Positions 624 through 17,556 of a DNA stretch of 24,537 nucleotides are shown piece by piece. The stretch spans positions 1 through 24,537 of the IMG/VR virus record IMGVR_UViG_3300025395_000214; one strand, given 5' to 3'. This DNA comes from a virus. The position numbers were made by a program, and so were the translations under genes. Positions within the stretch are counted from its first letter, which is position 1. Each line of letters begins with the position of its first letter. The notes below the pieces were generated by a model. It saw only the letters and a list, made by a program, of their open reading frames with translations, ran no database searches and was not told the DNA's origin.

Positions 624-3600
624 ATGGGTATGGGAATGGGCGGTGGCGGTGGTGGCGGTCAAGGGCCATCAATGACGATGTTTAACGGCACGTCCACCGT
701 GACGCCGCCGGAAGAAGTCTTGCAGATGTATCGCTCTATTAATCCTAGAGCGCAGGCTGCGGCTGACACGCCCTGGGAAAATTATTCCAACAACCCGAAT
801 GATTTCGTCGCGCCGTTTAACGATTACCAATACGCCGGCCTTGGTGGCATGGGCGCTAACTTGCAGACGGCAACGCCCTTTGTTCAGAACGCCGCGCAAC
901 AATACAATGGCGCTGATCAACTCTACGGCATGTCAGATGCTATGGCCGGCAGCGCGGCTGGACAGTCTGTTGCGAATTACGGTGCGCCTGATGCAATAAC
1001 GGGCGGCTACTACAACAACGCAATGGATCAATACGGGAAGGCCGCGAATGCTCCTGGCGGCTTAGACGTGGGCAATCCATACTTGCAGGGTGGCGCCGGA
1101 TTAATTGGTCAGGGCGGTCAGGGGACGACGCCTGTCGGCTACAATGAAATTCAGCAATATGAATCTCCTTATCAGTCGCAAGTCATCAATTCGACGATGG
1201 GCTTGCTCAATCAACAAAACGAGCAGGCAATGTCCGGCTCGCTCGGAAATGCAGTTAAGTCAGGCGCATTTGGTGGCGATCGCGCTGGCATTGCGGCGGC
1301 TAATCTTAACCAGCAACAAACGCTCGCCAATGCGAATGTTCTAGGCGGATTAGAGAACCAGAATTACGCGCAGGCATTAGGGGCTGCGCAACAAACGCGT
1401 GGCATGAACCAAGCGGATCTACAGCGTCAACTCGCGGCTGGTCAGGCTCTTGGCCAAATTGGTTCAGAGGCCGGTCAATTACGCAATCAAGACCTCGGTC
1501 GATCGCTTGCGGCTGGTCAGCAAATGGCTGGCCTCGGCACGCAGAAGTATCAAAACTACACGGCGCAACAGGCGCAAGAGCAGCAAGACCTTTCTCGTCA
1601 AATGCAGGCGGCGCAGCAATACGGGCAGAACGCAGCCGGCGTGTCGAATGTCGCGCAAGGCATGGGCAATCTCGGATTTGGATTGCAGTCAGGTATTGGC
1701 AACGCGTTAGAAAATTACTTTGGCGCAGGCACAGCATTGCAGCAAACGTCGCAAGCACAAAAAGACGCGATGTATAATCAGTGGCTGCAACAAAAAGCAT
1801 ACCCTTTCATGACCACACAATGGTTGGCGGATATGTATGGGTCGCTTGGTCCGTTGTATGGTTCGACGACGACATCAAGCGGCACATCAATGTCGATGCC
1901 GATGTCCGACCCACGCGTCAAAACGGGCGTCAATGGATTTAAGCGCGGCGGCGAGGCTGACAAGCCGGAGGTTATTGGACGCACATTCGACGGCCAGGAC
2001 ATTTATCGCTACAGCCTCGGCGGTTCAGCGCCTCAAATTGGCTTAATGGCTGATGAGGCCGCGCAGCGCGACCCAAGCACGGTTCATCACGACAGCCACG
2101 GCTTAATGCACCTTGATTACGCTCGCGCGACGGACGACGCGGCGAAGATTGGTCATCACGTCGGCGCAAACAGGCGCGACCACTTTGCTGGCGGCGGCTT
2201 GGCGGGCGCCTTGGCCGCTCAGTCGCAGATGTATGCAGCCAAGAAGCCTGGGCAAGTTGGTCCGGGCGGCAATAGTTTTGTTCCGCAGGGCAAGGGCGGC
2301 GGTCACGGCATGTTGACTGCGCCCCCGCCGAATGTTCCGAAGGCTGAATTAACGCAGCCAAAACCACAGCATGCCCCGCCAGACGTTGCGGGTGGCCTTG
2401 AGAAGATGAAGGGCCTCGCTGGTGGCAAGGGCGGTCTTGGCGGACTATTTGGCAGCAACGGTCTTGGGGGCGCCTTCAACACGGCGTCGAATGCCACTTC
2501 GGCTGCTACGCCTGCGGCTGCGACTGCGGAAACAGTTAGCGCAACGCCCGCATCGACTACGCCTGCGGAAGAATTTCCGAAGGCAACTCCTGCGAGCACT
2601 GACGCGGCGCCATTGCCGCCATCAAGACCGTCAGACCTATCAACTGCCTTGATAGATGCCGACGCCTCGAAAATGGCGAGCGACATTGATCAGAATGCCG
2701 CGGATGCTGTGGACACTGCCGACGCGAGTGACGGCCTCGGAGAAATTGCTGATGATGCTGTCGGATTAGCAAATAGAGGCGGTCGGATTAATCGCGCCGT
2801 TGGTGGCGTTATGCCGTTCAACAACAACAAGGGCGCCATACCGTTTTCACCAAATGGCGGCTCGATGCCGTTTGAGCAGGGCATGGCGAACAATGTTGTC
2901 CCGGCTGCGGTGATGAATGACCAGCATCACCCACAGATGCCAATCAGCCAGCCGCCAGACATGATGAAAATGGCGGGCCAAGGAGGCGGTGGCGGCAAGA
3001 AAGGCGGCGGCGAGGGCGGAAAGCAGGCCGAGCAATTAATGAAGCAGGGCATGGAGCAGATGAAGGGCATGGCCGAGAAGGGCCAGAAAGCCGCCGAGTC
3101 TGCGCCATCTAAAATCACTGAGCAGGCAACGAAGCCTGTTGAGGACGTCGCCGACAAAACACAACTCGCCAATAGCACTGAGCATGCCGCAAACAGCGCG
3201 GAGAACACGTCTCAGGAGGGCCTGGGCAATGTTGAACAGGCCGCCAATAGCGCGGAAAATGGAGCCAATGAGGGCCTCGGAAATATCGGCGGCGACATTG
3301 GCAATAAGGCCAGCGAGGCCGGCAGCGGCATGCAGGAGAGCGCCACTGAGGGCCTTGGCGACCTCGGCTCGTCTATGGGAGACGCTGGGGGTGGCCTGGG
3401 CGACGCCGCCGGTGACGCCGGGGCTGAGATGGCGGACGCCGCCGGTGACGGCCTCATGGGAGCCTCTGAGGACGCTGCGGCTGGCATGGGAGACATGGCT
3501 GCGGAGGCTGGGGCTGACGCGGCTGCGGCTGGCGCGGAGGCTGCGGCTGGTGGCGGCGCGGAGGGCCTTCTCGGTCTTCTGCCATTACTGCTCTTGAAGC

Positions 3601-6263
3601 GTGGCGGTCGCGTTCCGAGGAAGACATTCAGTGCCGGTGGTCCAGACAGTGACGTCAGTGCGTCTGACGATAATGGACCGGATGGCGGATTGGCGCCACC
3701 GCCAGAAGCACCGACACCGAACAAGCCTATTGAGCTTGTCAAAGTTGAAGAGCCTCGGCGTCAGGAGCAGCAACAACCTGTGCAGGTTGCCGAAGCTTCA
3801 ACGACGAAAAATGATGCAACGCCTGCGGATGACGGCTTCAATCGTCATGTCGGCACGGTGTTAAAGGTGGAAGGCGGCTACACGCCAGATGACGCCGGAC
3901 ACGGTCCATCCAACCGTGGCATTAACGCCGCAGCGCATCCGGGCATGGACATTAAGAATATCTCTGAAGGTCAGGCGCGAGATATTTATCGCAAAGAATA
4001 TTGGGATGGCGCCGGCATTGGTAAGTTGCCAGCGAACATGCAGGGCCTTGCGTTTGACGCGTCCGTTAATCAGGGACCGGGCAGGGCAATGAAGTGGGCG
4101 CAACAAGCTGGCGACGACCCATACAAGCTCTACAAGCTACGTCAGGATCATTATCAAAGTTTGCTTGATCAAAATCCCGGCAAGTATTCGCGTTATGCAA
4201 ATTCCTGGAATGGCCGTCTAAACGCACAAGCGCAACTCGCTGGCATTAAGGACATCAGCAATCTGCAAGTAAACGGGCATCCTGCGCGCAACACAGGTGG
4301 TGGGCCGGAATATCTTGATCGCTCAATGATGGCGTCTACGGACGGTCACGAGCAACAAATCGGACCCGGAGCAGAAGAGGGCGGTCTCGGCGCGATGGAC
4401 GTCATTCTGCCGATTGCTGCGGCTGGCTTACAGTATGCCGCAAACAGAAAATATTATGGATCCGGCCCCGCGGCTGCGGCTGCTATTTCGAGCGGCCTTG
4501 GCTTGGCGGGCAGTATGCGCACGGCTGGCTTGGAGGAAGAGAAAATACGCCATCAGATGCAAGTCGAGGATGAGCGTCTCCGTATTCAGCAAGAGGACGC
4601 TGTTAGAGCGGGTCAGAAGTGGGAAGCTGAGCAGGCTGCAACACAGCGAGAAATTTTGAAGCGTAAGGCGCAGGAAGAGGCGATCAAGACGATGCGTCAA
4701 GGCGCACAGCCTAGTCGCCCAGATGAGGGTTATGGACCGCCTCCAGAACCAAATGCGCAGCCACCAGCGAACACACCTCCACAGGTTACGCCGCCGGCGC
4801 CGGTTAATCCCGCGCCAAAGGTTCCAGCGCCTGTAGAGACGCCTCCACCGCCACCGCAAGCGACGCCGAAGACGCAAATTGTTCCCGTTCCAGAAACGCC
4901 TGTGAATAACGAGCAGCAAAGCGATGGCCTCGCCGGCAATCGCCAGGTTCAGCCACAACCCGCAGTCGTTAAGCCGAGCAACACATCAACGAATGCTGAT
5001 CGTGTTGTTGAGAACGAAATTGAGCCGTCAAAACCCAAAGTGCAGGAAGTTCAGCCGGCGCCGACCTTCAACACTGCGAAGGACAAGGGCTCATTCTTCC
5101 GCACATTGCAGGACGAGGACAACCCTTACTATTGGGACGCTCAAATACAGAACGAGAAAAAACAGGCCGACGCGGCTCTCTCTACAAACTCGCCGGAAAT
5201 GATGGCCGAGTATGAGAAGCACATGCTGGCCGCTCGTGAGGCGCAAGCCAAAAAGATCGAAGCCGCAAATCGCGAAGTCATCACTGACCGCTACGGTAAC
5301 AAGTGGCGCAATCCTGGATTGGCTGAACAAAAGGCCGAGGCGGGGGCTCTCGTTAAGAAAACTGAAGAGGAAGCATCACAGTCTGTAAGAGATCAGCATG
5401 AGCTTGTTGATTGGGAGCCAACGGGTGGTGGCGCCACGCGTCAAGTAACAAAGGCCGAAGCCATCCGTCTATCCAAAGAGGGCAAGGGCCGCATGGTTGA
5501 CGAGAACGGCGACGAAATCCCCGTCAGCGGTTACGTCAAAAAGCAGCCTGAGATATTCGCCAAGAAGCAGGAGGCTATCCAGAAGCGTTATGATGAAATG
5601 ACGCAATCCTATCTGGAGCGTCCAAAGTCTCTCAATAACTTCAAGCAAATGGCGCATCTCTTGGAGAACATTGAGACAGGCAAGTGGTCTGGAACATTGC
5701 AAGAGGCTGCGGCAAGGGCCAAGGCGCTTGGGTTTGATATTCCCGACAGCGCAACTGTTAATCCTGCGGCGTTCCAGGAATACGGCAAGTTCTCCATGGC
5801 CAACGTGATGAATGTTGCCAAGGACACGTCAAACAAAGTGCTTGCGATTGAGCTCAATCAGATTGAGCGCGCCAATCCAAATATCGAGATGCAGCCGGAA
5901 GCAAATCGCCTCATCCTCGGACAGAATATCGGCATCGCAAATTGGCAGAACAAATTCTACGAGGATTATTCCGAGTGGTATAGCAAGCATTCAACTGCAA
6001 CGGATGACTCAAACTTCTCCAAGAAGTGGGTGAATGAAAACCCGCTCCAAGATTACATTGATGACGCGACGAAGAATGTCTTCGCGGTTGGGTCTAAAAA
6101 TCCTCCATTAGAGAAGGGAAAAACCGGCGTTGATGTGCCGTCTGAAAGGCGCGTTGTTGGCAGAGAATATCCAATGCCAGATGGAAGAAATGCTGTCTGG
6201 ACTGAGACAAAGAGTGGTAAAAAGGGCTGGGTCGTAAAGCAGAAGGATCAACCTAGTGACTGA
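624..6263 (+). CDS. Giant internal-virion/DNA-ejection protein with S74-like and GH108 muramidase domains
   Basis: A protein of 1879 aa, unusually large and modular. It opens with a Met/Gly-rich start. Residues ~180-420 are Gln/Ala/Gly-rich helices (GAFGGDRAGIAAANL, repeated LAAGQ) typical of phage DNA-injection proteins. Residues ~428-505 are S74-like (SDPRVKTGV, DGQDIYRYS, IGLMADEA, LDYARA). Low-complexity Gly/Ala/Asp follows, with an 18-residue tandem repeat (AANSAEN..EGLGN) near 850-890, and a hydrophobic run GLLGLLPLLLL lies near 980. A GH108 muramidase domain covers ~1073-1205, with EGGY and candidate catalytic E1083, then YWDGAG and DASVNQGPG. A charged coiled coil covers ~1303-1362 and a proline-rich linker ~1363-1426. 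The C-terminus is mixed helical. The expected role is to travel inside the capsid and be ejected with the DNA, with the muramidase opening peptidoglycan. AAGAGGA precedes ATG 624. It overlaps the next gene by 8 bases, suggesting coupling. Confidence 0.8.
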   Translation: MGMGMGGGGGGGQGPSMTMFNGTSTVTPPEEVLQMYRSINPRAQAAADTPWENYSNNPNDFVAPFNDYQYAGLGGMGANLQTATPFVQNAAQQYNGADQLYGMSDAMAGSAAGQSVANYGAPDAITGGYYNNAMDQYGKAANAPGGLDVGNPYLQGGAGLIGQGGQGTTPVGYNEIQQYESPYQSQVINSTMGLLNQQNEQAMSGSLGNAVKSGAFGGDRAGIAAANLNQQQTLANANVLGGLENQNYAQALGAAQQTRGMNQADLQRQLAAGQALGQIGSEAGQLRNQDLGRSLAAGQQMAGLGTQKYQNYTAQQAQEQQDLSRQMQAAQQYGQNAAGVSNVAQGMGNLGFGLQSGIGNALENYFGAGTALQQTSQAQKDAMYNQWLQQKAYPFMTTQWLADMYGSLGPLYGSTTTSSGTSMSMPMSDPRVKTGVNGFKRGGEADKPEVIGRTFDGQDIYRYSLGGSAPQIGLMADEAAQRDPSTVHHDSHGLMHLDYARATDDAAKIGHHVGANRRDHFAGGGLAGALAAQSQMYAAKKPGQVGPGGNSFVPQGKGGGHGMLTAPPPNVPKAELTQPKPQHAPPDVAGGLEKMKGLAGGKGGLGGLFGSNGLGGAFNTASNATSAATPAAATAETVSATPASTTPAEEFPKATPASTDAAPLPPSRPSDLSTALIDADASKMASDIDQNAADAVDTADASDGLGEIADDAVGLANRGGRINRAVGGVMPFNNNKGAIPFSPNGGSMPFEQGMANNVVPAAVMNDQHHPQMPISQPPDMMKMAGQGGGGGKKGGGEGGKQAEQLMKQGMEQMKGMAEKGQKAAESAPSKITEQATKPVEDVADKTQLANSTEHAANSAENTSQEGLGNVEQAANSAENGANEGLGNIGGDIGNKASEAGSGMQESATEGLGDLGSSMGDAGGGLGDAAGDAGAEMADAAGDGLMGASEDAAAGMGDMAAEAGADAAAAGAEAAAGGGAEGLLGLLPLLLLKRGGRVPRKTFSAGGPDSDVSASDDNGPDGGLAPPPEAPTPNKPIELVKVEEPRRQEQQQPVQVAEASTTKNDATPADDGFNRHVGTVLKVEGGYTPDDAGHGPSNRGINAAAHPGMDIKNISEGQARDIYRKEYWDGAGIGKLPANMQGLAFDASVNQGPGRAMKWAQQAGDDPYKLYKLRQDHYQSLLDQNPGKYSRYANSWNGRLNAQAQLAGIKDISNLQVNGHPARNTGGGPEYLDRSMMASTDGHEQQIGPGAEEGGLGAMDVILPIAAAGLQYAANRKYYGSGPAAAAAISSGLGLAGSMRTAGLEEEKIRHQMQVEDERLRIQQEDAVRAGQKWEAEQAATQREILKRKAQEEAIKTMRQGAQPSRPDEGYGPPPEPNAQPPANTPPQVTPPAPVNPAPKVPAPVETPPPPPQATPKTQIVPVPETPVNNEQQSDGLAGNRQVQPQPAVVKPSNTSTNADRVVENEIEPSKPKVQEVQPAPTFNTAKDKGSFFRTLQDEDNPYYWDAQIQNEKKQADAALSTNSPEMMAEYEKHMLAAREAQAKKIEAANREVITDRYGNKWRNPGLAEQKAEAGALVKKTEEEASQSVRDQHELVDWEPTGGGATRQVTKAEAIRLSKEGKGRMVDENGDEIPVSGYVKKQPEIFAKKQEAIQKRYDEMTQSYLERPKSLNNFKQMAHLLENIETGKWSGTLQEAAARAKALGFDIPDSATVNPAAFQEYGKFSMANVMNVAKDTSNKVLAIELNQIERANPNIEMQPEANRLILGQNIGIANWQNKFYEDYSEWYSKHSTATDDSNFSKKWVNENPLQDYIDDATKNVFAVGSKNPPLEKGKTGVDVPSERRVVGREYPMPDGRNAVWTETKSGKKGWVVKQKDQPSD

Positions 6264-9200
6264 TGAGCTCCTTTCTGACGACGCATTCTCCGCACCACAA
6301 GGTAAGGAAAGCAACTCAGAGCCAGAGTTGTTGAGTGACGAACACTTTGCTGCGCCGACTGAAGGCAAGACTGAAACCAAGTCTGAAGGCAAGGGAATAC
6401 TGTCAAACAACAATGACGGCTGGGTAAGTGGCGCCGCAAAGGGAACAGCAACCGGCGCCATCAAGGGTGGCATTGCTGGAACTGTCGGCGTGCCGGCGAT
6501 GATCCGCGACATGAATAACGCTGTGCTCGACTTTGGTTACGACAAGGCAAGCAAATACATTCTTGGTCACGACGAAGAGCAGCGCAAAAGGGAACAGGAA
6601 AACAGAGACCGATTAAGAAAAGATATTGGCGTCCAATCACTCCTGCCTAACACTGAGCAAATCTATAAGAGCACAGTTGAGCCAGTTGCTGGTGAGTATA
6701 AGCCTGAGAGCGGCGTTGGTCGCGCAGCCATGGGCGCCGTTGAGGCCGTCACCATGGGCGGCAATCCAGTAAAGAGCATTCCCAAGCTAGTTGATACGGC
6801 ACGACGGGAAGGCCCCGGCGCCGCTAAAGCAATTGGCGAGTATTTGGGTTCTAATAGTGTGAAGCAGGTGGCCAAGGACAGTCTCGGCGCAGCGGGTCGA
6901 ACACTAAAAGATAACGGCATTAATGCGTTGTCTGGTGCGGGATCGACTGCGACGTATGATTTAACGGGAAATCCTTACCTTGCATTTGCCGCCGGCATTG
7001 CTCCGGGTGGAGCCGCGCGTCTTGCGAGCATGGCGGGCAAGGGCATTCCACCGATATCAAAGACGGATCGAGAGCGTCAGGCTGTCAGAGACCTTGATAA
7101 ATTCTCATCTGATCCGCAGGCATTGAGGGAAAAGATTTGGCCGAAGGAAGGCCCGACGCAGGATGAAATCATCCCCGGTGCGCCACTGACAATGGGCCAG
7201 AGATACGGCGACCGTGGTCTGCTTGAATTAGAGCGCGCCATGGAGGCCAGCGAGGGCGCCAAGACGGCCAGTGGTGAGAGCGTCAAGCACTTCAATGAGC
7301 TCGCCGGGCAGCGCAATGAGGCGCACAGAAATGCCGTCGCTGGATTGCGCACAGAGGGCGCCGACGCACTGGACGTTCCGCGTCACGTTGATAGCCACTA
7401 CGACCGCATAATGAATGAGGCCGAGCAGGAGCATCAGCGCCTACTGCAAAAGTCTGAGGAATTGTCCTCACGCCTCGGCGAGGGCCGTGACGCCAGTGCG
7501 ATCGGTGAGGATTTGAGATCATCACTTGAAGCTGCAAAGAAGGCAGAGAGTGAAAAGCTGGACAGACTTTACAAGACCGTTGACCCTGACAAGAGCCTTC
7601 ATCTTTCAACGAACCCGGTGCAGGAAGCTTCGACCAGTATTCTGACAAACAAGAGCGAGTATTCGACGGCCCTGTCTCCCATTGAGAAGGAGATTTACGA
7701 ACAGGCCGCGAGTATGCCGAATGTTCTAAAACTGGACGATATAAGAAACTTCGACTCAAAATTGTCTGAGGCGATGTCTGATGCGCGCCTATCGGGGCGT
7801 CGGCAGGAGCTCGCCAGGCTTACCCAATTGAAGATATCAATTAAGGACGCTATTAATAACGCTGTCCAGCATCAGAGCGCCTGGGAACAGCAAGCGGTTA
7901 AACGTGGCGTCTTAAAGCCAGAGGATACACTTGAGCACAGACTCAAAGTTTACGGAGCCGAAACCGAACGCGCTGTGGGGGAGGACGCCTCTGCAAGTGC
8001 TCGAAAAAGTGTTGTCGGAGCAGAAGAGCCCACAGGAGAGGGCAATGTTCCTCCAGAGATGCGAGCAGGGAGCGAGGGAAGCCGGCGACCTAATGGCTCT
8101 GAGGGCGATCAAAGATTACAAGGCGAAGGCTCTAGCGCAGGAAGGGTCGAATTCGATCCTAAGTCCGAAGGAGTAGGCTCAAAAGCCTCTCAGGAACAAT
8201 CACAGCCGAATAAGACCGAAAGCGGTGCGGCGCGCCCCAACATGACGAAGGAGGCGGCTGAGAGGCTTGCCGTTGCGAATAAGGCGAATGAGAAATTCCA
8301 GACGACCTACAATGAGGGTCCAGTTGGCGCCGCATTAGAGACCAACGGCTTCGCCAAGCAATACAATACTGGTCACTCTTCTGTTCCTGCCAAGGCAGTA
8401 GTTGCGGGTGACAAGGGTTACGAGACAGCCAAAACGTTTTTGAACGCCGCCAAGCAGGATCCACAGGCCGTCACGGCGATGCAGGATCAGGTGCTCAATC
8501 GATTACGGGCGACTGTAGGCATCAATGGAAGAATAGATCCCAACAAGCTTGCAAAGTGGAAGCAGAATTTCTCTGGAACGCTTCGTGCGATCGACGAGCA
8601 TGTCCCAGGCTTTTCATCCACGTTTGATGATGCTGCAAAAGCTGAGACGGCGTTCAGAGACTTCGCAGTCAAGACCAAGCAGACGCAGGCTGAGTTAAAG
8701 AAAAACCCGCTCAATCGTTTCTTTGGCCTCAAAACTGGCACTGACGTTGAGAATGCCGTCGGCAGCATGATGACATCGGGCAAGGTCGGCGACGCGAAGA
8801 CTGTCATTGAGCACTTCAAGAAAAACGCTCCTGAGAGTTTGGACGCGCTGCGCACGTCATTCATTGATTGGCTGACGCGCAAGAAGAGCAACACAGGCGT
8901 GGGCGCCAACACTGACACGCACATACTGAGTTACGACAAACTAAACACAATGCTAAGAGACAACCATGAGGCCCTTTCGGCCTTGTTCACGCCACAGCAA
9001 ATGGAAGTCTTGCGCAATGTTCGCAAGTCTATGCAGTATGCGGATCGCTCCAACTGGACACGCATTGCGGGTAGCCCTGGGACGGCGAAGGATAAGGCTG
9101 CGATTGATGCGTTCCTAAAGAAGAGCGGCGATCAGTTAGACAAGCCTCTGCACTGGATACTTATCGATCATGCAATGGGTGGCGGCATGTCACTCGCAAG

Positions 9201-9579
9201 TCTTTTTGGTGCAGCTAAAGTCCACACGCACTTGAATGCGTGGAGCGCCGGAAAGTCAGAACAGATACTGAGACGAATGCTGACGGATCCATCCTTTGCG
9301 CGTCAGATGATGATGAAGCATCCGAACGTGGCGCCAAAGGACATGCCAACTCTTATTGATAAGTTGCTTGTCAATGCCGGCATGACGGAGACCGAGCGCC
9401 AAGCCAGACCAAAGCGAGCAGCCGGCGGAAGAATGTCACGCAAGGCCATGACTGCGGATCAATTAATTCGCGGTCTTGAGATGGCGCGCAATCAGCAAAA
9501 GAAAAACACAGAGACGATCCTAGACAAGCCGGACGAGGCTGTTGTCCGCGCTTTATCTATCGCTAACGAGCAAATCTGA
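6256..9579 (+). CDS. Second large internal-virion-type protein (1107 aa)
   Basis: GTG start at 6256 with GAAGGA 8 bases upstream, overlapping the preceding stop. The N-terminus has two copies of ELLSDxxFxAP (residues 4-14 and 24-34). A glycine-zipper-like stretch, GAAKGTATGAIKGGIAGTVG, follows near 57-76; it could insert in or span a membrane. Residues ~90-570 and ~660-1050 are mostly long charged helices. Residues ~570-660 are low-complexity Glu/Gly/Ser and coincide with an alternative-frame ORF (see 7931-8176). The C-terminus has KRAAGGRMSRKAM and a closing LDKPDEAVVRALSIANEQI. I recognise that closing pattern from ends of phage internal-virion proteins, though I cannot name the family. No catalytic motif was seen. 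Position, length and composition suggest an ejection protein acting with the 1879-aa protein. The C-terminal tail may be a packaging or docking signal; that is inference. Confidence 0.7.
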   Translation: MTDELLSDDAFSAPQGKESNSEPELLSDEHFAAPTEGKTETKSEGKGILSNNNDGWVSGAAKGTATGAIKGGIAGTVGVPAMIRDMNNAVLDFGYDKASKYILGHDEEQRKREQENRDRLRKDIGVQSLLPNTEQIYKSTVEPVAGEYKPESGVGRAAMGAVEAVTMGGNPVKSIPKLVDTARREGPGAAKAIGEYLGSNSVKQVAKDSLGAAGRTLKDNGINALSGAGSTATYDLTGNPYLAFAAGIAPGGAARLASMAGKGIPPISKTDRERQAVRDLDKFSSDPQALREKIWPKEGPTQDEIIPGAPLTMGQRYGDRGLLELERAMEASEGAKTASGESVKHFNELAGQRNEAHRNAVAGLRTEGADALDVPRHVDSHYDRIMNEAEQEHQRLLQKSEELSSRLGEGRDASAIGEDLRSSLEAAKKAESEKLDRLYKTVDPDKSLHLSTNPVQEASTSILTNKSEYSTALSPIEKEIYEQAASMPNVLKLDDIRNFDSKLSEAMSDARLSGRRQELARLTQLKISIKDAINNAVQHQSAWEQQAVKRGVLKPEDTLEHRLKVYGAETERAVGEDASASARKSVVGAEEPTGEGNVPPEMRAGSEGSRRPNGSEGDQRLQGEGSSAGRVEFDPKSEGVGSKASQEQSQPNKTESGAARPNMTKEAAERLAVANKANEKFQTTYNEGPVGAALETNGFAKQYNTGHSSVPAKAVVAGDKGYETAKTFLNAAKQDPQAVTAMQDQVLNRLRATVGINGRIDPNKLAKWKQNFSGTLRAIDEHVPGFSSTFDDAAKAETAFRDFAVKTKQTQAELKKNPLNRFFGLKTGTDVENAVGSMMTSGKVGDAKTVIEHFKKNAPESLDALRTSFIDWLTRKKSNTGVGANTDTHILSYDKLNTMLRDNHEALSALFTPQQMEVLRNVRKSMQYADRSNWTRIAGSPGTAKDKAAIDAFLKKSGDQLDKPLHWILIDHAMGGGMSLASLFGAAKVHTHLNAWSAGKSEQILRRMLTDPSFARQMMMKHPNVAPKDMPTLIDKLLVNAGMTETERQARPKRAAGGRMSRKAMTADQLIRGLEMARNQQKKNTETILDKPDEAVVRALSIANEQI
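7931..8176 (+). CDS. Possible nested gene in the +1 frame of the 1107-aa protein gene
   Basis: An 81-aa ORF starting with TTG and preceded by AGAGGA (7920-7925) at a 5-base spacing, ending at TAG 8174-8176. The product looks like an ordinary helical protein (TPLQVLEKVLSEQKSPQERA, then LMALRAIKDYKAKALAQEG). By hand count, 58 of 81 codons end in G or C in this frame. Only 35 of 81 do in the host frame over the same bases, whereas the host frame just downstream (8227-8334) has 25 of 36. The host frame here is Glu/Gly/Ser low-complexity. It could be a real overprinted gene, a former independent gene swallowed by a fusion of its neighbours, or a segment of the large protein shifted by two compensating indels. 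No family is recognised. The TTG start lowers confidence. Confidence 0.4.
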   Translation: MSTDSKFTEPKPNALWGRTPLQVLEKVLSEQKSPQERAMFLQRCEQGAREAGDLMALRAIKDYKAKALAQEGSNSILSPKE

Positions 9580-9588: not shown

Positions 9589-10953
9589 ATGGCCACGCCG
9601 AATATTAATCTCACCCTGCCACCATACAATTCTCAGAATTGGAACACGCCGACTAACAACAATTTCACGATCCTTGATCAGGTTCTCGGCGGCAATCTAT
9701 CCGTCCCTATCACCGGCGACTACGCTTTGTCGCAAGAGCAATTGCAAAACCGCTCACTTGTGTTCAGCGGCACGATCGGCACCAACAACGCATACATCGT
9801 GTTCCCTAATGGAATTGGTGGTTCGTGGATTGTTTCAAACAACCTGTCAGGCTCGACGGGCACGATTTCACTGCGCACTGCCGGCTACAAGCAGGCTCCT
9901 GTGATCGTCCCTCCACAAGGCTCCACGATCGTCTACTCTGATGGCAAAGACATCTACAGCGCAGTCTCCGGCTCAGAGGGCGCGTATCTGCCTCTCGTCG
10001 GCGGCACGATTAGCGGCCCATTGTCTGTGCAGGGGAAGTTTTCCGCTAGCACAAGCGAGTTTACGGGCACGGCTATATTTCAGTCTGCGTCGTTTGATAA
10101 TATTTCAGTCACCTCTGGGATCGAGTTGTCGTCATCGACAGTCGGGTTGAAGAAGTTGTCTCTGGCCGGCGCGTCTTTTGTCGGCTCTGAGGTTTTAGCA
10201 GCCAAAGGATCGAGCGTTCTTGATGGCGACGTGAACATGCCGTCGGGGAGCCTGACTGTTGCCTTTGGTGGCCTGACCGTCAAAAACTCAACTGCCGTCA
10301 ACTCTCTCAACGGCGGCACGACTGTGCCAAACGGCGCGGCGCTGACGATTAAATCCGGTGCAACATTCACGGTTGAGGACGGTGCGCGTCTCGCTCTATC
10401 CGGCGTGTTCTCGCCGACATCTGTGAACACCGGCGACGTTAAGTCTAGCACCGGCGTAACGGTCACAGGCTCTGGCGGCGTGGACGCTGGCAGTGGTGGG
10501 TTCAAGACGGCTGGTGGCGTCAACGCGACGGGTGACTCAACATTTGGCGGCAAAATCACGGCCAATGGATTTGTCACTTGCAACGCCGGTCTTGCCACAG
10601 CCGGATATACGGCGTTCTACGGTCCGACAACTGTGTTCTCAAATGGCGGCGCGGCTGTCTACTTTGCTCCAAACAGCGGCACAAACTATCAGTCGGCAGT
10701 GGCTGACGTGGGCGCTACCGTTGGCCTATTCGATAACACGTTCACCAAGTTTGCCGTCCTCAACAAAAGCACCGGCAAGTTTACAGCATCCGGCGGCGTC
10801 GGCATCAGCGTGAATAGTCCGGTGACGGAATCTATTGCGCGGGCCTATCCGCAAGCTGTTTCCCAGCCATCCGGTTACGCCTCTCCAGTGCTGGATATCG
10901 AGGTCGTTCTGGCTGCGATGATTGATGAGATTGTAGCGTTAAGGGGGCGCTAA
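9589..10953 (+). CDS. Tail fibre / receptor-binding protein
   Basis: A protein of 454 aa, rich in Gly, Ser, Thr and Asn with regular short beta-strand periodicity. The N-terminus (NINLTLPPYNSQNWNTPTNN, residues 4-23, then NFTILDQVLGG) is of the kind that docks fibres to the virion. YLPLVGGTISGPLSVQG, near residues 133-149, is the classic fibre repeat. The centre (residues ~190-350) reads like a beta-helix or triple-beta spiral (GGTTVPNGAALTIKSGATF, GSGGVDAGSGGFKTAGGVN). The last 45 residues become helical (LDIEVVLAAMIDEIVALRGR) and probably close a trimer. It lacks an S74 chaperone at its own C-terminus. ATG 9589 follows GAGGA at 9578-9582. It is the last late gene before the attachment site and probably determines host binding. 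Confidence 0.75.
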   Translation: MATPNINLTLPPYNSQNWNTPTNNNFTILDQVLGGNLSVPITGDYALSQEQLQNRSLVFSGTIGTNNAYIVFPNGIGGSWIVSNNLSGSTGTISLRTAGYKQAPVIVPPQGSTIVYSDGKDIYSAVSGSEGAYLPLVGGTISGPLSVQGKFSASTSEFTGTAIFQSASFDNISVTSGIELSSSTVGLKKLSLAGASFVGSEVLAAKGSSVLDGDVNMPSGSLTVAFGGLTVKNSTAVNSLNGGTTVPNGAALTIKSGATFTVEDGARLALSGVFSPTSVNTGDVKSSTGVTVTGSGGVDAGSGGFKTAGGVNATGDSTFGGKITANGFVTCNAGLATAGYTAFYGPTTVFSNGGAAVYFAPNSGTNYQSAVADVGATVGLFDNTFTKFAVLNKSTGKFTASGGVGISVNSPVTESIARAYPQAVSQPSGYASPVLDIEVVLAAMIDEIVALRGR

Positions 10954-11131: not shown

Positions 11132-12223
11132 TCACTGTTTGTTCACGGCGTTCACGTCGGCAAAACGTCGGCGCGTCAGTGCTTCGGCGGCGCGTGTCAT
11201 TGCCTTAGTCCCGATGTGACCATACGTCTGTTCTACCATAGCCTCGGTCATACCGAGGAATTTAGCTGCGTCGGATGGCTCTGCGCCGTTTTCCATCATC
11301 CAGGTTGCGGCGGTGTGTCTCAATGTGTGCGGTGTGACGTCGCGCAAACCAGCGGCCCTCACAGCCTTATCAAATGCATTTTTGATCCGCAGAATTGGCT
11401 TGCCTCTAAATTCAATTAAAGAGTGCGTGCATAGGCCAAGTCTTTGCCAGCGACGAATGTGCGCGAGGAGGGGAGCGGGCAATACAACTGGTGGCTGTCT
11501 CTTTTTGGTGGCTCTTTTGCCGAATGCTTTGCGGTAGAATACGCCGCTGTTTATGTCGATAAAGCCTTTGCCGCTTGTTTGCGTCAGAGAGGCGCCACAG
11601 ATGGCTCCAGAACGTGAGCCGGTGTAAAGTCCTATTAAAATGAAACGCGCAACGTGTGGGCTTCTACGGTAGGCTGCAAGGAGCAGTCGAGCGGCCTCCG
11701 ACCTTGTCAGCCATCTATCCCGCGGTGAAGACTTTTCCGGCAGCGGGACGTCAACGATCTGTTCGCAAAGTCCTTCTCTGCGGTGATGGATGATTGCTGC
11801 GCGCAAGTCTTCTAATTCACGACGGGCTGACGCCACGCTCACGCGGCTTTTAACATATGCCCTGCACGACGGCCCTGAGACATAGTCAAGCTGTTTGCCA
11901 CCAAAAAATCTGAGCAGCTTTTCTGCTCTTTGCGCAGTCTCTTTAGGCCGCGCATGCTTTGGCGCAATGTCGCGCAGGTATAGGACGATTACGTCTTCTA
12001 TCGGGACGTTGGAAGGGTGACGACATCCGCGGTCGTCCTCGATGTATTTTTGGGTGATGTATTCTTTGAGCCGCTCTTGAGCCTCTCGATGAGCATTTGC
12101 GCCGCATCCTGTGCTCTTTTTCTTGTTTCCGTCTCGGATGATCCACCTTGCTGGAATGACGCGACCGTCTCGCACGCGTTCTTTCTCAAGGTTGAGGTAT
12201 GGTCCCTTGGACTCTCTTGGCAT
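11132..12223 (-). CDS. int: Tyrosine-type site-specific integrase
   Basis: A protein of 363 aa that would recombine attP with the host tRNA-Pro gene. The N-terminal ~50 residues (MPRESKGPYLNLEKER, WIIRDG, STGCG) form an arm-binding-like domain. The core-binding region covers ~70-160 and the catalytic domain ~170-345. Visible catalytic residues are R204 (TGSR), H299 and R302 (HTLR), and nucleophile Y334 (TYGH). The usual LGH histidine is a methionine (LGM, ~325), a variant I have seen in many phage integrases. Its stop lies 62 bases from the tRNA-derived core. It is the last gene of the leftward operon and its start is buried in the excisionase gene. ATG 12223 is preferred because the conserved N-terminal motif begins there. 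Confidence 0.93.
   Translation of the reverse strand: MPRESKGPYLNLEKERVRDGRVIPARWIIRDGNKKKSTGCGANAHREAQERLKEYITQKYIEDDRGCRHPSNVPIEDVIVLYLRDIAPKHARPKETAQRAEKLLRFFGGKQLDYVSGPSCRAYVKSRVSVASARRELEDLRAAIIHHRREGLCEQIVDVPLPEKSSPRDRWLTRSEAARLLLAAYRRSPHVARFILIGLYTGSRSGAICGASLTQTSGKGFIDINSGVFYRKAFGKRATKKRQPPVVLPAPLLAHIRRWQRLGLCTHSLIEFRGKPILRIKNAFDKAVRAAGLRDVTPHTLRHTAATWMMENGAEPSDAAKFLGMTEAMVEQTYGHIGTKAMTRAAEALTRRRFADVNAVNKQ
11155..11172. repeat. 18-bp direct repeat, right copy, inside the end of int
   Basis: Identical to 10959-10976 and placed on the other side of the attP core. It falls within the last codons of the integrase gene, encoding part of RRRFADVNAV on the minus strand. The left copy is non-coding, so conservation there is not explained by coding. 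The bases between core and repeat (11071-11150) are AT-rich and could bend. Confidence 0.6.
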
Positions 12224-12378
12224 TGGTCAAACATCCGATCTAGGTCTTCCTGTGTCGTCCAATCCTTGCCAGCAAGGCGATAAATAACCAAGCGACCACG
12301 ATCGCGCTCTTTGCGCAGGGATCCGACAGAAACGCCAAGGTTCTTAGCGGCTTCGGTTAATCTGATGCGGGTGGCCAT
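11998..12378 (-). CDS. Excisionase-like DNA-binding protein
   Basis: A protein of 126 aa. Residues 1-55 form a MerR/excisionase-type winged helix-turn-helix (RIRLTEAAKNLGVSVGSLRK, then ERDRGRLVIYRL and WTTQEDLDRMF). The polar C-terminal tail (GGSSETETRKRAQDAAQMLI, then LKSGSKNTSPKNTSR) resembles tails I recognise on excisionase-like proteins next to phage integrases. The tail is encoded in a second frame over the first 226 bases of int. I chose ATG 12378 over the longer frame because the helix-turn-helix starts there and AGGGA precedes it. Expected role: steering integrase toward excision and perhaps regulating int. Calling it excisionase rests on fold and position. Confidence 0.75.
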   Translation of the reverse strand: MATRIRLTEAAKNLGVSVGSLRKERDRGRLVIYRLAGKDWTTQEDLDRMFDQCQESPRDHTSTLRKNACETVASFQQGGSSETETRKRAQDAAQMLIERLKSGSKNTSPKNTSRTTADVVTLPTSR

Positions 12379-12413
12379 AATCGGATCCCTGTGAATATCG
12401 GGAATAAAGGTGA

Positions 12414-12752
12414 CTAAAATGGGATACAATCATCAACGTCAGATGAACTGCCGCTGCCGTAAATCATCGTCTCACCCTTTGGCGGTTCTATCGTGACGAT
12501 ATCCATCCAGTGAGTGGCTATTTTGCAGCCGCCCTTAATTTCCGTTTCAATTTCCCACATGCCCTCCATGTCGCATCCGCACCAACGGTCGTAGTGATAA
12601 GTGACATTTTTGGCTATCTCGCCGACATTCCCAACTCTGCGGGGTTTAACGAAAACGTGGCGCAGCCAAACATGGATCGCTCTGTCCTTCGGAGCGGTCT
12701 CAATAGGTTGCCACACACCGATGTTATTTTCCATTTTCTTATCTTTTGCCAT
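12414..12752 (-). CDS. DUF551-like phage protein with an SSB-like C-terminal tip
   Basis: A protein of 112 aa. WQPIETAPKDRAIHVWL at ~14-30 and the later ATHWMDI are the hallmarks of DUF551-type phage proteins (WxPIeTAPkD ... ptHWmp), whose function is unknown. ATG 12752 is chosen because AGGAGA lies 9 bases upstream and the upstream HNH gene ends one base before it. An alternative is ATG 12734. The protein ends exactly in DVDDCIPF, close to the acidic DDDIPF tip that bacterial SSB uses to recruit repair and replication partners. The middle is Cys/Trp-containing (DRWCGCDMEGMW). It is part of the leftward recombination operon. Confidence 0.65.
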   Translation of the reverse strand: MAKDKKMENNIGVWQPIETAPKDRAIHVWLRHVFVKPRRVGNVGEIAKNVTYHYDRWCGCDMEGMWEIETEIKGGCKIATHWMDIVTIEPPKGETMIYGSGSSSDVDDCIPF

Positions 12753-12753
12753 T

Positions 12754-13164
12754 TCAACTATTCTCCTGGAACATGCTGCGAGGTGGCAGCGTCTTCTTTT
12801 CAATGCGCGGTTGTTTTCTCCTGTTTGAAAAGCCGCGTGATTGAATCTTCTGCTTTGGGGCCTCAATGCCGAGGTGACGCATTTTTTGACGCTTTGCTTT
12901 TGCTATGCGGGCATTGTCTCCGGCTTTCCCAAAAGTCTTATCTGCCGCACAAGCCTTGTGGGCTGGCGCCCTGTTATCGTCATCGTTAGAACCACCAAGA
13001 CCAAGAGCGCGAACGTGCTCATCTATCCAGAGCTCCCCAGCTTGAATTTGTTTGCCGCAGACGACGCAAATACCCTTGTGTCGCTCAAACAGCTTTAATC
13101 GCTGTGTCGGCGTGAGGGATTTACGCTGCGTCGTCCCTAAATCAGTCGTCAATGGTAATTCCAC
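12754..13164 (-). CDS. HNH endonuclease
   Basis: A protein of 136 aa if the GTG at 13164 is used. The HNH/zinc-finger motif is clear: CVVCGKQI (C33, C36), then DEHVRALGLGGSNDDDNR and APAHKACAADKT (H50, N64, H69, C72). The C-terminal half is strongly basic. HNH proteins of this size are common in phage early and packaging regions, acting as DNA nicking or cleaving enzymes. Here it follows ninB with a 23-base overlap and precedes the DUF551-like gene. The start is uncertain: GTG 13164 and TTG 13152 are both possible and neither has a strong ribosome site. The catalytic family call is firm; its biological substrate is unknown. Confidence 0.85.
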   Translation of the reverse strand: MELPLTTDLGTTQRKSLTPTQRLKLFERHKGICVVCGKQIQAGELWIDEHVRALGLGGSNDDDNRAPAHKACAADKTFGKAGDNARIAKAKRQKMRHLGIEAPKQKIQSRGFSNRRKQPRIEKKTLPPRSMFQENS

Positions 13165-13519
13165 GCTCAGTGCTAAACGCGATGATCATTTCCAAGAGCT
13201 CAGACATTTCGTCTTTTGTTAGCTCACTTGAGGAGTGTCGATTACCAACAAAGATCACGCCTCCATTGATCCCCGGCACAGAAAGATTTCCCCAAAGCGA
13301 ATTGAGAAAAATATCCTTCCACGCATGCTCATCGAATTTGTGACCATCCCACTCGACTGACTTTGCAATCTTGCGCAGATAGGGCCACAGCAAAGAATTT
13401 TGATCACGCGTTCGCTTGTTCGGTCTGCGAAAGGCAACTGAAATTCCAGGCGTGGCCTTTTGTATCCAGCCTAAAACTTGGTTTCGATTGTCTTGCGTAA
13501 TCTGAATCCAGTTAGGCAT
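13142..13519 (-). CDS. ninB: NinB-like recombination mediator
   Basis: A protein of 125 aa, close to the ~140 aa usual for NinB (lambda Orf). The recognisable pattern is FRRPNKRTRDQNSLLWPYLR, then SVEWDG, HAWKDIF, a short glycine loop (VPGINGG), SSSELTKDEMSELLEMIIAF and the end ERGITIDD. Lambda Orf binds single-stranded DNA and SSB and helps load the annealing protein, replacing RecFOR. GGAG ~10 bases upstream supports ATG 13519. The gene sits just downstream of the exonuclease/annealing-protein block, which fits a phage homologous-recombination module. Confidence 0.85.
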   Translation of the reverse strand: MPNWIQITQDNRNQVLGWIQKATPGISVAFRRPNKRTRDQNSLLWPYLRKIAKSVEWDGHKFDEHAWKDIFLNSLWGNLSVPGINGGVIFVGNRHSSSELTKDEMSELLEMIIAFSTERGITIDD

Positions 13520-13525
13520 TGGTCG

Positions 13526-13792
13526 TTATCTCCACTCAGGAGCAAACGGAATGTTGTCGTCCAGTTGGGACGCCAAACTTGCGGAGCCACCCTTGTCCGC
13601 TTGCTTCTCCTTTGGCTTGATATTGCCAGAGAAGAATTTGCCGCCGTCACGCTTGCGCTCCTTCACCCACAGGTTGACGAAATATTCCTTGCCCTCAACG
13701 TTTACGGAGCCGGTAAACTCAGGGTGAGTGTCCTGTGTGCGACGATCGTTACGAGAGATAATAATGGTGTTGGTATTGTCGTATTGGCTCAT
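13526..13792 (-). CDS. Small phage protein, DUF736-like/possible OB-fold
   Basis: An 88-aa protein. The core THPEFTGSVNVEGKEYFVNL, then WVKERKRDGGKFFSGNIKPK, is a short all-beta pattern seen in many phage early regions, resembling DUF736. A small single-strand-DNA-binding fold is possible but not shown. Near the end it carries LDDNIPF, an SSB-tip-like motif, followed by APEWR. ATG 13792 overlaps the TGA of the upstream gene (ATGA), indicating translational coupling. Neighbours are recombination genes. Confidence 0.6.
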   Translation of the reverse strand: MSQYDNTNTIIISRNDRRTQDTHPEFTGSVNVEGKEYFVNLWVKERKRDGGKFFSGNIKPKEKQADKGGSASLASQLDDNIPFAPEWR

Positions 13793-14013
13793 CCGTTTCT
13801 CCTGATCATATCCTGACGTGACTTGTATCTCTCACGCAGGATTTCCTTATGGTCTGTCGTCAACCTAAAAATTTGCTTAGAGTTGTAATCAAACCAATTC
13901 TTCAATTCCTGCGCCGATGTCGCCATCTCCAAGGCAAACGTCACCAGCGCGAGAATGTCCTCCGAAAGTTCACGCTCAGTTGAACTTTGCTTGCAATCGT
14001 TCTGTAAGGTCAT
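13789..14013 (-). CDS. Small protein matching the C-terminal domain of the annealing protein
   Basis: A 74-aa, mostly helical protein with ALEMATSAQELKNWFDYNS, then IFRLTTDHKEILRERYKSR. This pattern aligns by eye with residues ~166-200 of the 211-aa protein at 14599-15234: shared AT, L..W, N, I..L, E.LRE.Y with near-constant spacing. It may be a stand-alone interaction domain of the same recombination complex, but no function is established. Its first 38 bases overlap the end of the YqaJ gene, and its stop overlaps the next start as ATGA. Confidence 0.6.
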   Translation of the reverse strand: MTLQNDCKQSSTERELSEDILALVTFALEMATSAQELKNWFDYNSKQIFRLTTDHKEILRERYKSRQDMIRRNG

Positions 14014-14599
14014 CCAACTCTGCGAGGAATTTAATAACCTCGTCCTCTAGCCGTTTCACAAATGCATCATCACGCTCAATCCGCTTAACCCACATGCGCA
14101 ACTCAGTCGGCGCCTGATCACAGTATGATATAAAGTCACACCAATTGCGTTCTGGCATGCAAGCAAATCCCCAATGAATTTGCGTCAAATATTGCGGTGG
14201 CACTTTTTCGCTAAGCAAATATTCGCAATGCGTTTTTAGTTGCGGCGCCTTAATCTCAATCAATCCGTCACCAACAAGTCCGTCTGGCGAATAGCCGGAG
14301 TTTTGAATTTCTGGATGATCGACAAACAAAACTTGGTGGACTTTAACGTCGTGCAAAAGAGAGTAGGTGACACGCGCAATTGGCTCCTGCCGTGTGCCGT
14401 TAGCCATGAACCTGTTCACTACGTTCTCAGTGGGAACCTGTGTCAGGCGCTCTATTGCTAGCTCGTGCATGTAGTTGGCGCGCTCGGCCTTTGGCTTGCC
14501 GCTGCGGTCTGTGTCGATGATGGAGAAGACGCGACTTGCCGTGACTTTGCCAAGCCGCATTCTCTTCCAAAAATCACTGCCTTGTGTGATCTCAGTCAT
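13976..14599 (-). CDS. YqaJ/lambda-Exo-type recombination exonuclease
   Basis: A 207-aa protein, the usual size for YqaJ-family phage exonucleases. Motifs in order: MRLGKVTASR (~14-23), NGTRQEPIARVTYSLL (E72), SGYSPDGLVGDGLIEIKAP with predicted metal-binding D106 and E115 and catalytic K117, and PPQYLTQIHWG (Q137, Q140). Family members processively resect one strand of double-stranded DNA ends and hand the single strand to an annealing protein. That fits the gene directly upstream, whose TAA overlaps this ATG as TAATG. The C-terminal ~35 residues are helical. Confidence 0.9.
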   Translation of the reverse strand: MTEITQGSDFWKRMRLGKVTASRVFSIIDTDRSGKPKAERANYMHELAIERLTQVPTENVVNRFMANGTRQEPIARVTYSLLHDVKVHQVLFVDHPEIQNSGYSPDGLVGDGLIEIKAPQLKTHCEYLLSEKVPPQYLTQIHWGFACMPERNWCDFISYCDQAPTELRMWVKRIERDDAFVKRLEDEVIKFLAELDDLTERLQAKFN

Positions 14600-15234
14600 T
14601 ACGCCGCCTTCGCTGCAAGACGTTGCTTCTGGTCAGAGTAAATCTCCCGAAGAGCCTCTTGATCAGCCTCTAACAGCTTGGAAATGCGCTCGGCGTTAGT
14701 GACGCCCCAAGTGTTGAGAGCCTTGAGCGTTGCAAGGGATGTGATTTCAGCAATCAGCTTGTCGCGCTGCGTCTTTGATTCATCCTCAGAGGCGTAGTCG
14801 ATCGCCTCGGTGACAGGCGCCGCAACACTATTCTGCGTGATGGTGACAGTGACGTCCTTGAATGCGTCGGCCTCGTCCTCGGCGTAAATATCGCCATGAA
14901 GATTGAGAAGCTTCAATACAACTCGATCTTTTCCGCGCTTTTCTGCCATCGACACAGGGTAGGAGTTTTTATTGTTTGACGGCGCCGCCTCTCCATACGA
15001 CCACTCTGAGCGATCACCCAGATGGCCGGTGACGCGAATGACAGCGATCTTTTTCTCGCTGTTCATTTCAGCCTCGTGTGGCTGGTCAAAAGTAATGCCA
15101 GCCTTCGCCGCAATAATCTCAATAGCCTTGTGATAAATCACAAGCACACCGTGGCAATCCCACACGGCGCTCTTGGGGTCAGGATGATACTTTTTAAGTA
15201 TCTCCAACTGACGCGCATCAAGCTGCTTAGCCAT
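14599..15234 (-). CDS. Putative phage ssDNA-annealing recombinase
   Basis: A 211-aa protein paired with the YqaJ exonuclease. Residues 20-120 have WDCHGVLVIYHKAIEIIA, ITFDQP, GERSEW-like GDRSEWSYGEAAPSNNKN, then YPVSMAEKRGKDRVVLKLLN. The MAEKRxxDRVxLK signature recalls the single-strand annealing protein groups around ERF and Sak/Rad52-like proteins. I recognise this type from phages of alphaproteobacteria but cannot fix the subfamily. Residues ~158-205 form a helical C-terminal domain that recurs as the 74-aa protein at 13789-14013. Expected role: annealing resected strands during phage recombination. ATG 15234 overlaps the upstream stop (ATGGCTAA). Confidence 0.6.
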   Translation of the reverse strand: MAKQLDARQLEILKKYHPDPKSAVWDCHGVLVIYHKAIEIIAAKAGITFDQPHEAEMNSEKKIAVIRVTGHLGDRSEWSYGEAAPSNNKNSYPVSMAEKRGKDRVVLKLLNLHGDIYAEDEADAFKDVTVTITQNSVAAPVTEAIDYASEDESKTQRDKLIAEITSLATLKALNTWGVTNAERISKLLEADQEALREIYSDQKQRLAAKAA

Positions 15235-15436
15235 TTAACTTAACCTTTCTGTGTTTTTCGACCTGCACCCAGCGAATTGCTTGACGCATGTAGTGGTGGA
15301 ACTGCCAAGGATCCTTCCCGTAGATTGTTGGACGGCGCAGATATGAAAGCGCCGTCTCCCGACTGAACTGCGCCATGTAAAGTCTGTGGTTCATGGCGTT
15401 GTGTTCATCGTCAGTGATGTAAGGAAGGGGTGTCAT
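15227..15436 (-). CDS. Small conserved-looking phage protein, unknown
   Basis: A 69-aa protein. The motif content is tyrosine and arginine rich (AMNHRLYMAQFSRETALSYL, then GKDPWQFHHYMRQAIRW). I do not recognise a family. ATG 15436 is chosen because it overlaps the upstream stop as GAATGA, implying coupling, and the longer frame upstream reads over the preceding gene with no typical protein character. It ends by overlapping the start of the annealing-protein gene. Confidence 0.6.
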   Translation of the reverse strand: MTPLPYITDDEHNAMNHRLYMAQFSRETALSYLRRPTIYGKDPWQFHHYMRQAIRWVQVEKHRKVKLNG

Positions 15437-15672
15437 TCCGCTGCGTCCTGTAAAGCAGGGCGGCGCATAACCTCGTTGAATGCAGCAACTGCATCTTCGA
15501 TTGTGTAAGCGTCTTCTTCCAATAAGTGGAAAACGGTAGACGGAAAAATTCCGCAATTGAGCCCACGTTCCTTCACCACAAGAACTGCACAAGGGTCGCC
15601 TTCTGGTGATTTGAATTTCTGGACGTGTAACTCAATGCGACCGTCCAAAAATGTTATTGCTTCCGTTTTCAT
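15433..15672 (-). CDS. Small phage protein, unknown
   Basis: A 79-aa protein with an alternating beta start (MKTEAITFLDGRIELHVQKF, then CAVLVVKERGLNCGIFPS) and a helical end (YTIEDAVAAFNEVMRR). No family is recognised. It is coupled on both sides: its ATG shares a base with the upstream TGA (TGATG), and its stop overlaps the next start. GGAG lies ~10 bases upstream. It is part of the leftward early operon. Confidence 0.6.
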   Translation of the reverse strand: MKTEAITFLDGRIELHVQKFKSPEGDPCAVLVVKERGLNCGIFPSTVFHLLEEDAYTIEDAVAAFNEVMRRPALQDAAE

Positions 15673-16004
15673 CAGTAATCTCCATCGTCATAGCCAACAG
15701 TGGCGTTGATTGATTCAATAACTTGGTCGTAGACGTGCGTACTGTCTTCGATCAGGTGCAAAAGCTTGCCAGTAGGAACGAAAGCTGGGCCGAGATCGCT
15801 GTAGCGATCCTCGCGCATCACAATGCTGTTGATCTCAAACTCTGGATCGTAGCCTTCTTCGTCCCACGTCGTGGGCGCGCCATAAGTTGTAAGCGTCCAC
15901 TCAATTTCGAGAACAAACTCGGCGCCCATCATGCTGAAGTAAGCTTCGGCGGTGCCGTTTGAGTCAGGACGGCTGGAGCGTGTGCGATAAAACCGATAGC
16001 CCAT
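15672..16004 (-). CDS. Acidic phage protein, unknown
   Basis: A 110-aa acidic protein. A beta-rich middle (AEFVLEIEWTLTTYGAPTTW, then PEFEINSIVMREDRY) and an acidic C-terminus (GYDDGDY) are visible. No family is recognised. GGAGA lies ~7 bases before ATG 16004. It follows the 114-aa gene by 33 bases and overlaps the next start by one base. Confidence 0.6.
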   Translation of the reverse strand: MGYRFYRTRSSRPDSNGTAEAYFSMMGAEFVLEIEWTLTTYGAPTTWDEEGYDPEFEINSIVMREDRYSDLGPAFVPTGKLLHLIEDSTHVYDQVIESINATVGYDDGDY

Positions 16005-16037
16005 TGAAATTCTCCGAGAGAGGGAAGAGAGGCTGCG

Positions 16038-16382: not shown

Positions 16383-16420
16383 TGTTTATAGCCCTTTCCA
16401 TCAGCGTTTCGATGGATTGG

Positions 16421-16448
16421 ACTATACAGTAACGTAACAGATAGTCAA
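16421..16448 (-). promoter_or_regulatory. Leftward early promoter (P-left)
   Basis: On the minus strand, -35 TTGACT (16443-16448) and -10 TATAGT (16421-16426) each match the sigma-70 consensus at 5 of 6 positions, with a 16-base spacer. The spacer contains the operator motif also found beside cro. Transcription would start about 30 bases upstream of the 114-aa gene. Confidence 0.7.
16428..16439. promoter_or_regulatory. Operator in P-left
   Basis: AGTAACGTAACA, matching TGTNACGTNACA at 9 of 10 defined positions. The wider CAGTAACGTAACAG has dyad symmetry around ACGT. It fills the space between -35 and -10, so a bound repressor would block RNA polymerase. A half-site CGTAAC lies at 16459-16464. 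Confidence 0.6.
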
Positions 16449-16490
16449 GCAAATGAATCGTAACTATTCAAACTTTTTTTGTAAAACTTT

Positions 16491-17554: not shown

Positions 17555-17556
17555 TC

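Follow-up and report, generated by a model that had tools for sequence, protein, structure and literature searches.

Does the gene of a large virion protein in this phage carry a second gene in another reading frame? The question was raised by positions 7920 to 8176 of the window, by which we mean the whole stretch of 24,537 nucleotides analyzed (positions 1 to 24,537 of IMG/VR record IMGVR_UViG_3300025395_000214). The initial annotation had noticed an open reading frame (ORF) shifted by +1 and had proposed a nested gene, a swallowed former gene or a double frameshift. Conservation in distant relatives, considered below, makes it highly probable that the nested gene is real and separately translated, its role being left out of this judgement.

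The nested reading frame and its setting

The enclosing gene, hereafter the host gene (6256..9579, + strand), encodes an 1107-aa putative internal or ejection virion protein. Entirely within it, on the same strand and offset by +1, lies the candidate nested gene of 81 aa (7931..8176, + strand), defined from the ORF list, its homologues and constraint tests. It starts with TTG, ends with TAG at 8174-8176 and is preceded, after a 5-base spacer, by a Shine-Dalgarno-like (SD) AGAGGA (7920..7925, + strand). The sequence AGAGGA five bases before a TTG and the stop end at 8176 had been correctly annotated, whereas position 7920, given as the beginning, is that of the ribosome-binding site, the ORF proper starting at 7931. 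A TAA stop (7913..7915, + strand) closes the +1 frame just 5' of the nested start; in the window lineage this frame is open from 7916 only, that is, 5 codons upstream of TTG.

A recount of GC at third codon positions gave 58/81 in the +1 frame and 35/80-81 in the host frame, and the earlier hand counts (58/81 versus 35/81) proved exact. The 81-codon window of the host gene with the lowest GC3 begins at 7984. High GC at first codon positions was also found in other stretches of the host gene, so that GC phase alone is weak evidence. Openness of the frame by chance was unremarkable as well, since synonymous resampling of host codons left the +1 frame free of stops over the nested stretch with a probability of ~0.14, and it was therefore not counted as evidence. 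It is conservation in relatives, and not openness, that lifts the candidate ORF far above chance.

In the host frame, the stretch over the nested gene (7930..8178, + strand) encodes a Glu/Gly/Ser/Arg-rich linker that joins the conserved N- and C-terminal parts, in agreement with the Glu/Gly/Ser-rich composition noticed initially, and the host alignment breaks at host residues ~563-643. Directly upstream, the gene of a 1879-aa internal virion protein (624..6263, + strand) encodes a DNA-ejection segment (phrog_4287, residues ~299-501) and a lysozyme/endolysin segment (phrog_315, residues ~1052-1220). Its 3' end overlaps the host gene by 8 bases, which suggests translational coupling. Directly downstream lies the gene of a 454-aa putative tail-fibre-like protein (9589..10953, + strand), for which no PHROG match was found; its role was assigned from its position, and the gene order is kept in the diverged phages L018 and L021 described below. 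The remainder of the window, 11132-17174 on the minus strand and 17306-24466 on the plus strand, constitutes a temperate module, including an integrase (11132-12223, -), pieces of a RecE-like exonuclease (13976-14599 and 16038-16382, -), a CI-like repressor (16491-17174, -), a ParB-like protein (18303-19586, +), a DNA methyltransferase (20539-21558, +) and a helicase (22967-24466, +). The ORFs at 14599-15234 (211 aa) and 19625-20389 (254 aa) had no PHROG match at E 0.01.

Homologues and constraint on the +1 frame

The window, an IMG/VR contig, was compared with three contigs from other metagenomes, which were about 99.9% identical or better over the region and carried the nested ORF unchanged; four independent contigs, the window included, agree on it. 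Direct searches of the phage collection with nested peptides gave no real match, and none was obtained for the 1107-aa host protein against phage records. Diverged phages (L018-type contigs and L021) were reached via the neighbouring 1879-aa protein. Their host-protein homologues (1482 aa in L018 and 1473 aa in L021) are about 34-35% identical to that of the window. By tblastn, the nested product matched L018 with 46% identity (E 7e-10) and L021 with 43% identity (E 7e-8). Both matches lie at the corresponding place of the host gene and are shifted by +1 against a host ORF that is itself uninterrupted.

Searching plasmids with the 1107-aa protein added Aureimonas pAU20g and plasmids of Microvirga lotononidis and M. 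terrae, at ~25% identity (host homologues of 1040 aa in pAU20g and 1160 aa on the Microvirga plasmid). An HMM of the nested product matched pAU20g and the two Microvirga plasmids at the equivalent place, in +1 of the host (E 1e-6 to 2e-7). When the whole 7.3-Gb plasmid collection was searched with the Microvirga nested peptide, matches were confined to the two Microvirga plasmids and, with E 0.08, to the nested site of pAU20g. Nested homologues thus occupy the equivalent place, in the same relative frame, in loci L018, L021, L084, L085 and L086, the last two being those of M. lotononidis and M. terrae. That the large protein might continue in the +1 frame in its relatives was also checked and not borne out: the host ORF remains open without a change of frame in L018, L021, Aureimonas and Microvirga, where the +1 homologue is encoded separately and has a stop of its own. 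These relatives support the nested gene among the options initially put forward.

The distribution of the nested gene is narrower than that of its host family. Wider scans were performed with the C-terminal motif and the upstream protein as queries, the latter reaching many more distant phages. The nested gene went undetected in about 20 phages whose ejection operons are more distant and was not found in the fetched Paracoccus, Rhizobium, Methylobacterium, Roseivivax and MW202711 relatives; it is therefore not universal to the host family. The bacterial genome contigs scanned did not contain it either. In the records searched, it was found only within the ejection-protein gene and never free-standing.

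Several observations concern the plasmids themselves. On the Microvirga plasmid, the host homologue lies one gene after a homologue of the DNA-ejection protein (phrog_4287). Two circular Hyphomicrobiales plasmids, L093 (NZ_CP141051.1, 12056-23446) and L094 (NZ_CP006374.1, 19625-24333), bear a phage-like ejection operon with the large protein and, in Microvirga, also the phrog_4287 homologue. The annotation given for these two plasmids contains no terminase, portal or capsid gene, and they may be phage-plasmids, remnants or helper-packaged satellites. Between M. lotononidis and M. terrae, host codons ~360-600 are almost identical and the first ~360 codons have diverged, a mosaic that suggests recombination. 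The 3' part of the compared stretch, nested gene included, is nearly identical between the two, and the substitution analysis of this pair gives no independent test because the nested stretch is too alike.

Constraint on each frame was computed against a null in which host amino acids were kept fixed, synonymous codons were redrawn from the usage of each gene and the resulting +1 translations were scored. The +1 similarity was above this null in 10 of 10 pairs among the five lineages, with z between 4.9 and 14.7, the observed score being reached by 0-1 of 2000 resamples. In an ancestry-preserving control, in which all frames were scanned along the real host alignment, the +1 score peaked at the nested gene for the pairs window-L018 and L018-L021; no +1 peak appeared in the sliding control for window-L021, where the windows are cut by alignment gaps. 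Local BLOSUM62 scores for the window were 41 in the host frame versus 104 in the +1 frame against L018, and 31 versus 94 against L021. Both frames are conserved between L018 and L021 (140 for the host versus 149 for +1, host-frame z 13.9), and host-frame similarity is weaker for the window lineage (z 2.2-3.6). The host ORF is open in all five lineages, and the host frame is thus also coding.

Synonymous positions of the host frame led to the same picture. Between L018 and L021, identical synonymous codons amounted to 22/35 within the nested gene versus 213/534 outside (p 0.012), identity at host codon position 3 was 0.58 versus 0.32, and the gene-wide maximum of 25-codon synonymous identity (20/25) fell in the nested gene. 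The initial annotation had held that the signal points to selection on the +1 frame, and both the conservation and the resampling tests bear this out; the comparisons indicate that purifying selection on the putative +1 product exceeds that imposed by the host frame.

Two explanations that dispense with a nested gene have to be considered here. A compensated double frameshift, by mutation or by sequencing or assembly error, in which the +1 peptide would be the original host sequence displaced by two indels, would account for a host frame that loses its usual codon bias and turns low-complexity where the +1 frame resembles an ordinary protein, but its probability is negligible, given that the four assemblies are concordant, that the host ORF runs through in L018, L021, pAU20g and Microvirga with a +1 homologue having its own stop, and that L018 and L021 conserve the host frame too (score 140, z 13.9), error being excluded by the near-identical contigs from three other metagenomes together with the distant homologues. 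It is also very improbable that no second gene exists and that the +1 similarity is a by-product of host amino-acid conservation or of RNA-level constraint. Host conservation does slightly raise similarity in other frames, and an RNA element could in principle explain synonymous constraint. However, synonymous resampling with host amino acids kept failed to reproduce the similarity, conservation in the window lineage is lower in the host frame than in +1, and one would not expect an RNA element to maintain, within a single frame, a BLOSUM-like amino-acid pattern together with a start and a stop. The signal very likely reflects the nested gene itself and not a frameshift artefact.

Initiation, product and possible role

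The homologous start column reads TTG in the window, TTG in L018 and ATG in L021. At this place, CTT of the host frame is replaced by TAT in L021, and the concomitant replacement of TTG by ATG left the +1 frame with a start codon. The AGAGGA-5-TTG arrangement is common to the window and L018, and the SD is weak in L021. The duplex of the nested start with the anti-SD was estimated at -5.8 kcal/mol, close to the values of window genes at 624 (AGAGGATACGACT-ATG, -5.8) and 9589 (GAGGATTAGAC-ATG, -5.9). As an SD, the nested site is ordinary, since 11-14% of sites in the host gene score equally well. For Aureimonas and Microvirga, the best start is uncertain and falls outside the homologous column. 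The RNA is less strongly structured around the starts of the three phages than over the gene on average, most clearly in L021.

Translation of the +1 frame could also follow from a programmed +1 frameshift just before the conserved core, generating a shortened ejection protein of ~640 aa with a three-helix alternative C-terminus that ends at TAG 8174. Such a shift would make internal initiation unnecessary for the conserved +1 peptide and would suit the weak start or SD signals in L021, Aureimonas and Microvirga; moreover, upstream of the nested start, the +1 frame is free of stops over 5 codons in the window and over 20-25 codons in L018 and L021. Since this frame is open only from 7916 in the window, the shift would need to fall at about 7916-7988. 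Against this, the excess of +1 conservation begins only at the start-codon column: in 16-codon windows of L018 versus L021, +1 z values were 1.5, 1.4 and 0.3 upstream of that column and 4.0-4.9 just after it, and constraint of the frameshift type 5' of the start (0.3-1.5) was not seen; the excess is lost by the nested stop (z -0.8). In addition, the host codons at the start in the three phage lineages (CTT GAG, CTT GAA and TAT GAA) share no slippery motif, and the +1 codon remained a start where the L021 host codon changed. A programmed frameshift is therefore unlikely. Internal initiation is favoured over it because the start is kept in L021, the SD is shared, RNA structure is weaker and no slippery motif is present, and the nested gene is likely to have an independent start.

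The nested products are 67-81 aa long and hydrophilic (GRAVY -0.56 to -0.72), and their sequence contains no lipobox and no membrane or hydrophobic segment. A core conserved in tblastn matches and alignments (residues 20-66; 7988..8128, + strand) covers most of three predicted helices. It follows the pattern PLQVLE..V...P.ER..FLQ..E......DL..L.A.+DY+.K, of which E...P...F...E...DL...A is conserved family-wide. Structure models were built from three phage sequences only, and AlphaFold2 models of two phage lineages (pLDDT 72 and 77) agreed on a three-helix fold, with helices at residues 20-29, 34-51 and 54-73 of the nested product. A soluble three-helix protein of ~9 kDa is thus predicted.

As had been advised initially, the 81-aa product was searched against phage proteins and structures, and no significant family or fold match was returned by Pfam, PHROGs, NCBIfam, PADLOC, PDB sequences or Foldseek against PDB and BFVD. 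SlyX, DNA polymerase III theta and a scaffolding family were each matched by one or two members, at E 0.0077-0.3, and were rejected as non-significant or below the curated cut-off. As judged by the Pfam, PHROGs, NCBIfam and PADLOC searches, the protein family is previously undescribed and unannotated.

A ddrB-like ParB domain (Pfam PF18763, E 3e-30 and 1e-25) is present in the host homologues of L018 and L021 and absent from the 1107-aa protein of the window. It belongs to ~370 extra residues that follow the nested gene directly in L018 and L021 and are missing from the window and from pAU20g, as seen when L018:17024-18445 and L021:16565-18034 are set against window positions 7930-8180. The alignments place the gain or loss of this polyvalent domain exactly at the downstream edge of the putative nested gene. 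In the window and pAU20g, which have no DdrB-ParB insert, the nested stretch is kept as essentially the whole linker. Retention of the nested stretch in the absence of the insert would be expected if what is preserved were the nested gene and not the linker.

Taken together, 7931..8176 is best read as a genuine coding gene that occupies the +1 frame where a late virion or ejection gene encodes its linker. On the polycistronic late mRNA, ribosomes would initiate internally at TTG 7931 via AGAGGA and produce the 81-aa soluble three-helix protein, while other ribosomes would read the same bases as the unstructured linker of the 1107-aa ejection protein. The product would be synthesized along with the ejection proteins and could be a small partner of them, for example an assembly chaperone or a minor component of DNA ejection. 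Concerning origin, overprinting of the linker is more parsimonious than the swallowing of an older small gene.

A partner of the ejection apparatus is the simplest role because, in the records searched, the gene was invariably enclosed in an ejection-protein gene and no free-standing copy was seen, and because it is retained where the neighbouring DdrB-ParB domain is absent. Resting on genomic context, this assignment is tentative, and a late protein acting on the host cell is an equally serious alternative. Small orphan phage proteins commonly have anti-defence, superinfection or host-takeover roles, and the nested gene may be one that merely uses the linker as a coding niche, in a function unrelated to ejection. 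Its presence on plasmids, where counter-defence would be useful, agrees with this alternative, as does the DdrB-type domain of the L018 and L021 host homologues, a domain of polyvalent proteins linked to injected counter-defence (PMC5512222). Its confinement to the ejection-protein gene in the records searched and the lack of a match in PADLOC, Pfam or NCBIfam argue against it. A more elaborate form of the partner role, in which an unannotated out-of-frame gene family in the ejection or polyvalent-protein genes of phages and alphaproteobacterial plasmids would supply an obligate co-injected or co-assembled partner, with the overlap setting the ratio of the two, is rather doubtful.

Comparison with known systems

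Well-supported nested genes in structural genes of dsDNA phages are rarely annotated because gene callers reject overlaps. The present one can be traced over five lineages down to ~25% identity of the host protein, which is deep for an overprinted gene, and it indicates that a giant ejection protein can offer, in its disordered linker, a niche for further coding. Isolated bacteria carry a homologue (Aureimonas sp. AU20 and Microvirga lotononidis), making translation and function testable. The literature covered, which included few subscription papers, contained no description of a nested gene in proteins of this class.

DdrB-type polyvalent proteins have a ddrB-like ParB domain and are encoded beside late virion genes, as described in PMC5512222, whose main text has no word starting with 'overlap' and, in the passages covered, describes no nested gene. 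The L018 and L021 host homologues, with such a domain next to late virion genes, resemble them, whereas the host protein of the window is without it. In phage P1, the annotated ORF iddB likewise lies wholly within ddrB (L081:3447-3845; NC_005856.1, 26577-26975). However, it is on the strand opposite to ddrB, whereas the nested gene is on the same strand as its host; a search of the P1 stretch with the nested profile gave no homologue, and no similarity between iddB and the nested product was found.

Out-of-frame HNH endonuclease genes hidden in phage methylase genes (the ShiLan element) were recently described (PMC11855218). They share with the nested gene a non-ATG start, a shifted frame and a host ORF that is left open and apparently unharmed, but they are sporadic homing insertions with an HNH fold, whereas the nested gene is common to five lineages. 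A hidden HNH homing endonuclease was rejected, the nested product having no match in Pfam, PHROG or NCBIfam.

The classic example of such a layout is lambda Rz1, a small gene embedded in the +1 frame of Rz on the same strand and often missed by gene callers (PMC6139136). In both cases, a small gene lies wholly within the +1 frame of a larger gene of a dsDNA phage. Rz1 is an outer-membrane lipoprotein for lysis encoded near the end of Rz, whereas the nested gene is in the middle of a virion or ejection gene. A lambda-type o-spanin was also rejected, since the product has no lipobox or hydrophobic segment and the host gene belongs to an ejection operon, not to a lysis cassette. Embedded +1 genes are thus already known in dsDNA phages; what is new here is the protein family and its unusually deep conservation.
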